Assembly (NCBI GenBank): GCA_903862955.1
Contig: CAIPAH010000024.1
Span: forward strand, 186,001-250,000
Origin: an uncultured Opitutia bacterium
GTDB taxonomy: Bacteria; Verrucomicrobiota; Verrucomicrobiia; Opitutales; Opitutaceae
Reading direction: 5' to 3'
DNA length: 64,000 bases
In this document: piece after piece, positions 41,541 through 45,547 of the stretch
Layout of the letters: each line of letters opens with the position of its first letter
Position numbering within the stretch: position 1 is the stretch's first letter
The notes under the pieces: model-generated
What the model was told of the DNA's origin: nothing
Databases searched by the model: none
Seen by the model: the letters and a program-made list of their open reading frames with translations, nothing else
Program-made: the position numbers and the translations under genes

Positions 41541-43457
41541 ATGTCCATGTCCCCGCTCGAAGAACTCCGCCACTCCGCCTCGCACATCATGGCGACGGCC
41601 ATCCTCCGTCTGTTCCCGGACGCCAAGCTCGACATCGGACCGCCGACGGACACCGGCTTTTATTACGACATCGACCTCGACCACAAGCTGACGGCCGACG
41701 ACCTCATCAAGATCGAGGCCGAGATGAAGAAGATCGCCGACGAGAACCAACCGTTCCTCCGCAAGGAGGTCTCGCGCGATGAAGCAGTCGAGATCATCAA
41801 GTCCCGCGGCCAGGAGCGCTACAAGCTGGGCCGCCTCGCCGACATTCCCGAGGGCGAGAAGATCTCGTTCTACTCCAACGGCGAGTTCACCGACCTCTGC
41901 GCGGGCACGCACGTCCGCTACTCGTCGAAATTGAAGGCGTTCAAGCTGCTCTCCATCGCTGGCGCGTATCACCGTGGCGACGAGAAGAACAAGCAGCTCC
42001 AACGCATCTACGGCACCGCCTTCCCGACGAAGGACGAGCTGGCCGCCTACCTCGAGCAGCAGGAGCAGGCCAAGGCCCGCGACCACCGCAAGCTCGGCAA
42101 GGACTTGAAGCTCTTCGTCATCGACGAGGACGTCGGCCAGGGTCTCATTCTCTGGACCCCGCACGGCTCCATCATCCGGCAGGAGCTGCAGAATTTCATC
42201 GGCGGCGAGCTGCAGAAACAGGGCTATTCCCAGGTCTTCACGCCGCACATCGGCAAGCTCGAGCTCTACAAGACCTCCGGCCACTTCCCGTATTACAAGG
42301 ACTCGCAGTTCTCCCCCGTCTTCGAAAACGAGTCGCTCGCCAAAGTCATCACCGAGGGCTGCTCGTGCGGCGAGGCGTTCGCGCGTCTCGAGGCCGTGTC
42401 CGCCCACCTCGCATCGCAGATCAACGCACGCACCGGCAAGGAGACCATCACGCCCGACCGCGTGAAGCCAGACGCGCAGCTGCTCGACGGCTTCATGCTG
42501 AAGCCGATGAACTGCCCGCATCACATCAAGATCTTCGCCTCGCAACCGCATTCCTACCGCGACCTGCCCGTGCGCCTCGCGGAATTCGGCACCGTCTACC
42601 GCTGGGAGCAGTCCGGCGAACTCAACGGCATGACGCGCGTCCGCGGCTTCACCCAGGACGACGCCCATCTTTTCTGCACCGAGGAACAGGTCCCGCAGGA
42701 GCTGATCGGTTGCCTCGAGCTCGTGAAGATCGTACTCACCACGCTCGGCATGAGCGACTATCGCGTCCGCGTGGGCATGCGCGATCCCGACTCCAAGAAA
42801 TACACCGGCGATTCCGCCAACTGGGACAAGGCCGAGGCCGCCTGCCGCGCCGCCGCGCAAACGCTCGGTGTGTCCTTCACCGAGGAGCCGGGCGAGGCCG
42901 CGTTTTACGGCCCCAAGATCGACTTTGTCATCAAGGACGTCATCGGCCGCGAATGGCAGCTCGGCACCGTGCAGGTGGACTACAACCTGCCCGTGCGCTT
43001 CGACCTGTCCTACATCGGCGCCGACAACCAGCCGCACCGCCCCGTGATGGTCCACCGCGCGCCCTTTGGCTCGATGGAGCGTTTCTGCGGCGTGCTGATC
43101 GAGCACTTCGGCGGCGACTTCCCCGCTTGGCTCGCGCCCGAGCAGGTGCGCCTGGTGCCCATCAGCGACAAGCTCAACGACTACGCCGGCGGACTGCTGG
43201 CCAAACTCAAGGCCGAGGGCCTCCGCGCGACACTCGACTCCCACAGCGACAAGCTCGGCGCCAAGATCCGCCGCGCCGAGCTCGACAAGGTGCCCTACAC
43301 GCTTGTCATCGGCCAAAAGGAAGCTGACGCCCAGAGCGTCTCCGTCCGCAGCCGCGCCCGCGGCGACGAGGGCGTGATGACCAGCGACGCGTTTCTCACG
43401 AAGCTCAAGGCCGAGGTCGCCACCCGCGCGCTGCCGTTGAAGAAGTCATCGGGCTGA
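41541..43457 (+). CDS. thrS: Threonyl-tRNA synthetase
   Basis: LRHSASHIMATAI; DLCAGTHVRYSSKLKAFKLLSIAGAYHRGDEKN; PMNCPHHIKIFASQPHSYRDLPVRLAEFGTVYRWEQSGEL; HRAPFGSMERF. Confidence 0.97.
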   Translation: MSMSPLEELRHSASHIMATAILRLFPDAKLDIGPPTDTGFYYDIDLDHKLTADDLIKIEAEMKKIADENQPFLRKEVSRDEAVEIIKSRGQERYKLGRLADIPEGEKISFYSNGEFTDLCAGTHVRYSSKLKAFKLLSIAGAYHRGDEKNKQLQRIYGTAFPTKDELAAYLEQQEQAKARDHRKLGKDLKLFVIDEDVGQGLILWTPHGSIIRQELQNFIGGELQKQGYSQVFTPHIGKLELYKTSGHFPYYKDSQFSPVFENESLAKVITEGCSCGEAFARLEAVSAHLASQINARTGKETITPDRVKPDAQLLDGFMLKPMNCPHHIKIFASQPHSYRDLPVRLAEFGTVYRWEQSGELNGMTRVRGFTQDDAHLFCTEEQVPQELIGCLELVKIVLTTLGMSDYRVRVGMRDPDSKKYTGDSANWDKAEAACRAAAQTLGVSFTEEPGEAAFYGPKIDFVIKDVIGREWQLGTVQVDYNLPVRFDLSYIGADNQPHRPVMVHRAPFGSMERFCGVLIEHFGGDFPAWLAPEQVRLVPISDKLNDYAGGLLAKLKAEGLRATLDSHSDKLGAKIRRAELDKVPYTLVIGQKEADAQSVSVRSRARGDEGVMTSDAFLTKLKAEVATRALPLKKSSG

Positions 43458-43484
43458 GGTGGAGCGCATTGTCCCAAATGCGCT
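43458..43484 (+). repeat. REP (left) GGTGGAGCGCATTGTCCCAAATGCGCT
   Basis: 27-nt match, inverted, to 43935-43961; begins immediately after the thrS stop codon. Confidence 0.85.
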
Positions 43485-43485
43485 G

Positions 43486-43926
43486 TTAGACTCCGCTCCA
43501 CCAGTAAGCCCATGATTCCTCATCCGGGCACAATCCCTTCACGACCGGATTGCGGCGGATATAGTCCCACGTCTCAGCCTCGAGCTTGTCGCTGCGGATC
43601 CGGTGGTCGAAGAAGTTATCCTGCCAAATTACGCCGTGCAGCCGAGCCGTGCCCCGCTTCCATTCGCGAACGGTAGCCGCCATGCCGGCTTCTCTCGAGA
43701 AAGCTAGCAGCACGTGCAAATGATCCGGCATGAGCAGGAACAGTTTGCACCTCCATCTACCGGAGGCGTGATACCGATGTGCGGCTTTCAGAAGGTTGGC
43801 CGCCAGACCCGGCGAGATGAGAGGTCTGGCTTGGCTGGCATCCACACGAATGCGGATGTGAAATACTGAGCCGTCATTCACCCAGCCGGGCGTGTTGTGA
43901 CTAAGTCTGAGCGGGTAGTCCTTCAT
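43486..43926 (-). CDS. REP-associated tyrosine transposase (RAYT; Y1_Tnp/IS200-like HUH family)
   Basis: FHIRIRVDASQ; CKLFLLMPDHLHVLLAFSRE (HUH-type H-x-H); WQDNFFDHRIRSDKLEAETWDYIRRNPVVKGLCPDEESWAYWWSG, typical RAYT C-terminus. Confidence 0.9.
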   Translation of the reverse strand: MKDYPLRLSHNTPGWVNDGSVFHIRIRVDASQARPLISPGLAANLLKAAHRYHASGRWRCKLFLLMPDHLHVLLAFSREAGMAATVREWKRGTARLHGVIWQDNFFDHRIRSDKLEAETWDYIRRNPVVKGLCPDEESWAYWWSGV

Positions 43927-43934
43927 GCGATGAA

Positions 43935-43961
43935 AACACGTTAGGGACAACGCGTTCCACC
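43935..43961 (-). repeat. REP (right), minus-strand reading GGTGGAACGCGTTGTCCCTAACGTGTT
   Basis: Inverted relative to 43458-43484; abuts the stop codon of the aldehyde dehydrogenase gene. Confidence 0.85.
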
Positions 43962-45547
43962 TAAGAAGGATTTCTCGTAATTTCCCCGTTCACGAGCCGC
44001 AGCAGGCCGAGCGGGTTCGCCTTCCGCAGCTCGGCGGGCAGCAGCTCGTCCGAGAAATTCTGGTAGCACACCAGCCGCGCCCAGCGGTTGAGCGCGCGCG
44101 TGCCGACCGACGTGCTGCGGCCGCCATCGCTCGTCGAGGGATATGGGCCGCCGTGCACGATTGCCGCGCTGACTTCCAACCCCGTCGGATAGCCATTCAG
44201 GATCAAACGGCCCGCTTTCGCCGCCAGCAGTTCGATCAATTCGCCCTGCCCCGCGGCCTCCGCTGCACCAGCCTGCACGGTCGCGGTCAGGCTGCCTTCG
44301 AGGTGGCGCGCCACGTCCAGCATCTCCGCGCCGTCGTGGCACCAGACGACCAGTGAGCTGGGCCCGAAAATCTCCTCCGACAGGCTCCCATTCTTCAGGA
44401 AAATCGCCGCGTCCGTCTCAAACCACACCGGCGCCGCGCCGCAGGCCGTCACCGCCTTGGCTTCCGCGATCACCTTCACGCCTAGCTGTTTCGCGCGAGT
44501 CGCCGTGTTAGACACGAAATTTTTTCGAATGCCCGCCGTGAGCATCGCGCCTTCTGGCGTCGCCGCCAGCTTTGCGGTCAACGCGCGGATAAACTGCTCC
44601 GCCGCCGGCGAGCGCTGCAGCACGATCAACCCGGGATTGGTGCAAAACTGACCGACGTTCAGCGTCGCCGACGCGTGCAGGCCATCGACGATCGCCGCCG
44701 CCCGCTCCGCGAGCGCACCCCGCAGGATGAACACCGGGTTGATGCTGCCCATTTCGGCATACACGGGGATCGGCTCGGTCCGCGCAGCCGCCAGGTCCAC
44801 CAGCGCGCGGCCGCCCTTGAGCGAACCGGTGAAGCCCACGGCCTTCACCAGCGGATGTTTCACTAATGCCTGGCCGAGCTCGAATCCGGCATCGAAGAGG
44901 AGCGAGAACGAACCCTCGGGCAGCCCGCATTCCTTCACGGCGTCGACAATCAGCCGGCCAACGAGCTCACCGGTGCCCGGATGCGCCGGGTGGGCCTTGA
45001 CGATCACAGGGCAGCCCGCGGCGAAGGCCGACGCGGTGTCGCCGCCCGCCACCGAGTAGGCGAAGGGGAAATTGCTCGAGCCAAACACCACCACGGGTCC
45101 GAACGGGCGCAGCATCGAGCGGTGATCGGGCTTTGGCAGGGGCTTGCGCTCGGGCAGCGCCGTCTCGATGCGCGCATCCAGCCAGTCGCCGCGCGCGGCG
45201 GTCTCGCCGTAGAGCCGGAGCTGCCCGGACGTGCGCGCGACTTCACCGGTGCAGCGCGCCAGGGGCAGCCCTGTCTCCTGCACACCCATTGCCGCGAGCA
45301 CCGCAGCATTTTGATCCAGCTTGTCCGCGATCAGCCGGAGAAACCGGTTGCGCTCCGCACCGGGCAACCGGGCCCAGCGAGGCGCAGCCGCTGCTGCCAT
45401 TTGGACCGCGCTCTCCAGCTCCGCAGTGGAGGCCGAGTGAAAAACCGGCTCGAGGTCCTTCCCTTCCGTCGGATCGAACGCCCGGAACGTGGCGCCGCCC
45501 GGCGTGCCGCTATCCGAGCCGATGAACGAAAGACCGCGTAGTTGCAT
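43961..45547 (-). CDS. Aldehyde dehydrogenase, alpha-ketoglutarate semialdehyde (2,5-dioxovalerate) dehydrogenase type
   Basis: FRAFDPTEGKDLEPVFHSASTAELESAVQ; GPVVVFGSSNFPFAYSVAGGDTASAFAAGCPVIVKAHPAHPGT; ASATLNVGQFCTNPGL; context. Confidence 0.9.
   Translation of the reverse strand: MQLRGLSFIGSDSGTPGGATFRAFDPTEGKDLEPVFHSASTAELESAVQMAAAAAPRWARLPGAERNRFLRLIADKLDQNAAVLAAMGVQETGLPLARCTGEVARTSGQLRLYGETAARGDWLDARIETALPERKPLPKPDHRSMLRPFGPVVVFGSSNFPFAYSVAGGDTASAFAAGCPVIVKAHPAHPGTGELVGRLIVDAVKECGLPEGSFSLLFDAGFELGQALVKHPLVKAVGFTGSLKGGRALVDLAAARTEPIPVYAEMGSINPVFILRGALAERAAAIVDGLHASATLNVGQFCTNPGLIVLQRSPAAEQFIRALTAKLAATPEGAMLTAGIRKNFVSNTATRAKQLGVKVIAEAKAVTACGAAPVWFETDAAIFLKNGSLSEEIFGPSSLVVWCHDGAEMLDVARHLEGSLTATVQAGAAEAAGQGELIELLAAKAGRLILNGYPTGLEVSAAIVHGGPYPSTSDGGRSTSVGTRALNRWARLVCYQNFSDELLPAELRKANPLGLLRLVNGEITRNPS

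Follow-up and report, generated by a model that had tools for sequence, protein, structure and literature searches.

A single-copy RAYT gene framed by inverted GGTGG-foot REPs in an Opitutaceae-like genome and a probable helix code for the REP loop

In the window analyzed here (64,000 nucleotides from an Opitutaceae-like genome, Verrucomicrobiota), a small gene flanked by two palindromes lies between the convergent stop codons of thrS and an aldehyde dehydrogenase gene. The locus raises the question of what the encoded protein is, how it came to this site and how it recognizes the repeats around it. The results described below make it quite probable that this is a single-copy RAYT unit, inserted long ago, in which helix 82-97 reads the first loop base of the REPs, and that the window lineage has undergone a switch to the T-type loop.

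The thrS gene (threonine--tRNA ligase, 41541..43457, forward strand) and the aldehyde dehydrogenase gene (43961..45547, reverse strand) are the convergent neighbors of the RAYT (TnpAREP) gene, which occupies 43486..43926 on the reverse strand and encodes 146 amino acids when read from the ATG at 43926; this start is more likely than the TTG at 43950, which would give 154 amino acids. The left REP, GGTGGAGCGCATTGTCCCAAATGCGCT (43458..43484, forward strand, 3' of the RAYT), begins directly after the thrS TGA (43455-43457), where the first-pass annotation had placed it, and shows a GGTGG foot, a hairpin with the stem AGCGCATT/AATGCGCT and T at the variable loop position (TTG-T-CC); the RAYT stop codon TAA, which ends the ORF at 43486, is 1 base away from this REP. 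The right REP, GGTGGAACGCGTTGTCCCTAACGTGTT (43935..43961, reverse strand, 5' of the RAYT), had been described as touching the TAG of the aldehyde dehydrogenase gene and in fact shares one base with it, the first G of the REP being the final base of the codon. REP termini often provide stop codons for neighboring ORFs (PMC3733652). The two 27-nt palindromes are inverted, with their feet outward, so that the unit has the polarity of a REPIN with the gene sitting between its arms. Folding of the two REPs as hairpins on the GGTGG-foot strand gives z-scores of -4.1 and -2.5.

The unit is of an ordinary type, given that GTGG-foot REPs and REPtrons have already been published, including those of Opitutus terrae; in REPtrons with GTAG- or GTGG-foot REPs, the gene of a tyrosine transposase likewise lies between REPs or dimers of them (PMC3733652, PMC6006769). 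The GTGG foot is reported for most of the O. terrae GTAG-20 repeats (PMC3733652), which were compared with the window REPs in foot and arrangement, and is counted as canonical GT[AG]G (PMC6006769). REPs that overlap the ends of the transposase gene or lie within ORFs are also on record for REPtrons (PMC3733652, PMC6006769). Unlike the published REPtrons, the window unit has no inner REP arms. Thus, an earlier description of the locus as a complete RAYT-REP unit stands with regard to the RAYT and its inverted REPs, but completeness is doubtful because in relatives the gene usually has a whole REPIN on one flank or on each.

Profile searches, suggested at the outset as a check on the assignment, support it in part: NF047646 of NCBIfam (REP-associated tyrosine transposase) is matched with an E-value of 5e-18, but the score of 65.5 bits is under the curated cut-off of 80, and the match to Pfam Y1_Tnp is weak (17.3 bits, under the cut-off of 23). 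The REP-framed relatives likewise fall under the 80-bit cut-off of NF047646 (69-78 bits); the shortfall is a matter of the score threshold, not a biological feature. The relative found by sequence in the PDB is 4ER8, the Escherichia coli TnpAREP bound to a REP hairpin (E = 2e-4), and the same entry is the best fold match (E = 6e-8, probability 1.00) of the AlphaFold2 model of the RAYT (mean pLDDT 80), followed by the IS608 and ISDra2 transposases. The alignment to E. coli TnpAREP bears out the H-x-H and C-terminal RAYT signature recognized in the first-pass annotation: the HUH motif is H69-L70-H71 (codons 43714..43722, reverse strand), the catalytic tyrosine, which aligns with that of DYI..NPV, is Tyr122 of 146 (codon 43561..43563, reverse strand), and the guide-binding residues W101, Q102, D107, H108 and R111 correspond to W94, Q95, E100, H101 and R104. 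With an HUH motif and a single catalytic Tyr in a predicted Y1 fold, these guide residues and dispersed REPs, the window protein is, by sequence and structural model, a RAYT/TnpAREP, a domesticated transposase.

The two proteins share fold, HUH motif, catalytic Tyr and guide-binding residues, and K82 of the E. coli protein aligns with R91, but they are only ~20% identical, and E. coli TnpAREP differs in its longer, bulged REPs, in having no loop-sequence requirement and in its C-terminal tail. In a comparison by features, the form of the window REPs (short, unbulged) and D107 make the protein a candidate for group 3 of the TnpAREPs, the group being defined by short unbulged REPs, D for E100 and the lack of a 20-residue C-terminal extension; the group-3 proteins of Stenotrophomonas maltophilia and Marinomonas also have short perfect-stem REPs and D in place of E100 (PMC8266576). 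The TnpA proteins of IS608 and ISDra2 (IS200/IS605) share the HUH Y1 fold, the subterminal hairpins and a guide tetranucleotide 5' of the foot; these elements are mobile insertion sequences, whereas the window RAYT is present once, at an old site.

The last RAYT codons (W-W-S-G) contain CGCTCCACC at 43494-43502, as seen at first pass, and the reverse-strand feature at 43494..43502, GGTGGAGCG, equals a REP foot. A role of GGTGGAGCG as a functional pairing partner of the REP was set aside because Trp-Trp forces TGG TGG and the sister gene L025 has the same codons together with a separate full REPIN; CGCTCCACC is the conserved WWS coding end of the RAYT. A 45-nt stretch with GGTGGAGCG can still fold on itself. 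The WWS codons are where, in L026 and L028, two relatives, a complete REP belonging to the 3' REPIN starts, and the RAYT ORF of relatives often has its end within a REP or continues across it.

As expected from the first-pass annotation, the genome encodes one RAYT of this clade, the second match being 32% identical and having no adjacent GGTGG REP, and the repeat is a dispersed family rather than a pair of flanking sites. A search of the 3.61-Mb genome with a degenerate 27-mer at no more than 2 mismatches identifies 31 REP copies, against 0 for the reversed pattern, so that the similarity is not due to chance. Most dispersed copies form head-to-head REPIN pairs (+ then -, ~65-110 bp apart, feet outward). 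By a simple codon-usage score of coding potential, used in place of annotation, 17 of 30 copies are intergenic, 10 are within ORFs and 3 extend across the end of one; a mostly intergenic placement, as proposed earlier, holds as a majority but no further. At L007, L009, L010 and L012, ORFs of the window genome apparently contain whole REPINs. The genome also encodes two other Y1-type proteins, L023 (G000:C23:11904-12221) and L022 (G000:C22:240405-240734); a search next to L023 found no GGTGG REP. The relatives that have names in the public collection belong to Opitutus, Opitutaceae and other Verrucomicrobiota. Three genomes (G151, G015 and G154) contain between 17 and 66 REPs of a single loop type, and no close RAYT was found in them, either through loss of the gene or through incomplete assembly.

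Of 12 genus members, 11 retain the thrS-aldehyde dehydrogenase neighborhood, and three (the window genome G000, G124 and G152) have a RAYT at this site; the others have a short gap. The three site-sharing RAYTs, 60-70% identical at the protein level, form one clade (support 90/81 in a tree built without the helix residues), and the junction TAGGTGGAACGCG is identical in G000 and G124. Given that the three RAYTs are one clade, while G015, the closest relative of G124, lacks the gene at this site, a single insertion followed by losses is the simplest history: the unit probably entered the gap between the two convergent genes once, in an ancestor within the genus, and would then have been inherited and often lost. 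The genus tree is weakly resolved and requires two or more events of gain or loss here. Comparison of the window RAYT with its sister in G124 yields a dN of 0.19 and a dS of 1.11 (dN/dS ~0.17). The G124 RAYT (L025/L062) contains an in-frame TAG near its start and is possibly a decaying gene. In several RAYT-less genus members (L055-L057, L059-L061), the gap holds another large palindrome, such as TTCACGCC..GGCGTGA or CCACGAAG..CTTCGTGG, apparently of another intergenic repeat family.

RAYTs of at least 43% identity are nearly all flanked by GGTGG hairpins, and few of the more distant ones are; among the REP-framed RAYTs, stem and loop differ by clade. Within the stem class of the window, the first loop base is T, A or C (TTG-N-CC) and is nearly always the same in all REPs at a given locus. 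Comparison of the 25 family RAYTs that share this stem, over 118 protein columns, reveals three positions that covary with the loop base: T loops are accompanied in 6 of 6 cases by H97 together with [LM]96; A loops by F96 in 12 of 13 and Y96 in the remaining one, mostly with Q97; and C loops by A93 in all six. For columns 93, 96 and 97, the observed value was reached by none of 5000 label shuffles, and for the next best column by 12; a weak correlation of columns 50, 51, 54 and 55 with the loop base was lost after correction for the 118 columns. Leave-one-out nearest-neighbor assignment, scored on the same 25 RAYTs in which the three residues were found, reaches 0.94 with residues 93/96/97 and 0.52 with the rest of the protein, the majority class being 0.52. 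Two proteins, L092 (A93 F96 H97, C loop) and L096 (A93 L96 H97, T loop), are exceptions to a one-residue rule. Other REP stem classes, which have different helix motifs and loops, were kept out of the code; their sole comparable RAYT, L042 (C loop, AAARCQ), fits it. An order-level search found no further same-stem RAYTs outside the family, and no relative was confirmed on viral contigs.

When residues 90-99 are left out of the tree, the loop base undergoes 9 changes, compared with a shuffled mean of 9.6, so that it follows no clade. In all eight path-disjoint pairs whose loop bases differ, residues 93/96/97 differ as well, in the expected direction; the eight same-base pairs show only F/Y, L/M/I and T/V swaps and one A/T at 93. 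A retrospective split, in which first-batch loci predict the later ones and L042, gives 9.8/11, with 2/11 ambiguous and counted in part. The genome-wide REP counts examined first match the flanking loop type in most genomes, and loop-base predictions noted before ten further genomes were scanned were right in eight (G165, C; G194, T; G181, G237, G215, G203 and G166, A; G209, a mixture of C and A), counts that include flanking REPs already seen, low-copy genomes (G237, 5 copies) being only a partly independent test. The predictions failed in G202 (few copies) and G132, and the code also fails genome-wide in G093. From these sequence comparisons, it is likely that RAYTs of this clade read the first loop base via a three-residue code in alpha3 and switch specificity repeatedly, with the window as a post-switch snapshot. 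Literature searches, with most subscription journals and preprints outside their coverage, found no published loop-residue code.

The window RAYT (T A R L H at residues 93-97, the end of helix 82-97; codons 43636..43650, reverse strand) and its own two REPs are of the T type, and its sisters at the same site are of the C type. The 31 REPs of the window genome, the RAYT's own two included, comprise ~23 of the C type and 6 of the T type. That the dispersed REPs are mostly C despite a T-type RAYT is a point against the preferred reading; this mismatch fits a specificity switch with a residual C population, after which a T-type helix and T-type flanking REPs would be expected beside dispersed REPs that are still mostly C. 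Because T-type REPs are common in other genus members too, an older mixed REP population is a possible alternative to a switch in the window lineage.

The most likely mechanism, modeled on the studied TnpAREPs, is that the RAYT binds GGTGG-foot REP hairpins as folded single strands, that the HUH/Tyr center would cleave nearby DNA with the GTGG tetranucleotide as the guide, and that this cleavage may let REPIN pairs be copied or moved. With a GTGG guide, cleavage would be predicted at CC, the position reported for a GTGG variant in Marinomonas (PMC8266576). The covariation points to helix 82-97 (alpha3) as the most likely reader of the first loop base. Residues 93, 96 and 97 (i, i+3, i+4), which in the AlphaFold2 model map to one face at the end of this helix, just after R91, would set the acceptance of a T, A or C loop. 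In the E. coli TnpAREP, the alpha3 residue K82 is reported to touch a base of the REP that is unpaired, and in the group-3 REP of S. maltophilia, loop base G13, the first of three, is essential for cleavage; the same study presents no structural data for group 3, and alpha3 is supposed to contact the loop through residues that are not named (PMC8266576). Here, by comparison, three positions of alpha3 vary in step with the first loop base; at the level of sequence, this supports the supposed contact and names candidate residues.

The residue-loop association could also be a by-product of common descent in an ordinary RAYT-REP unit, or of RAYT and REPs moving together, and the loop base shared by the REPs of one locus is what local homogenization or joint transfer would give. 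This explanation is unlikely, considering that the remainder of the RAYT carries no phylogenetic signal for the loop base, that the strong signal is confined to columns 93/96/97 and that the independent pairs uniformly agree with the code. An active IS200/IS605-family insertion sequence that mobilizes its own gene and is bounded by the REPs would account for the HUH/Tyr fold and the inverted ends, and a second, 5'-truncated RAYT copy indeed exists in one relative, G106 (L162 on G106:C32, compared with L026 on G106:C14, with 95% homology across 257 bp that stops at the 3' REPIN end). The window genome, however, has only one RAYT of the clade, not several near-identical copies, the divergence of the genes at the shared site implies that the insertion is old, and dN/dS is low, which makes an active element very unlikely.

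The REPs had further been suggested to serve as a terminator or intergenic boundary, and hairpins kept mainly for this purpose between convergent genes would be in line with the contact of both REPs with stop codons and with the unrelated large palindromes in the same gap of several other genus members. The role of an intrinsic terminator is not supported, as there is no T-tract 3' of either hairpin; the locus has no Rfam match, and a third of the dispersed REP copies (10/30) are inside ORFs, so that this reading is the most improbable of the three.

For the preferred reading, a loop-reading alpha3 helix, the covariation names three residues where it was left open which residues of the group-3 TnpAREPs read the loop (PMC8266576), and the many natural loop switches represent ready-made test pairs. 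If the code is correct, the REPs served by a RAYT would be predictable from the RAYT sequence, and the switches would suggest how a transposase lineage leaves one REP population and takes up another.
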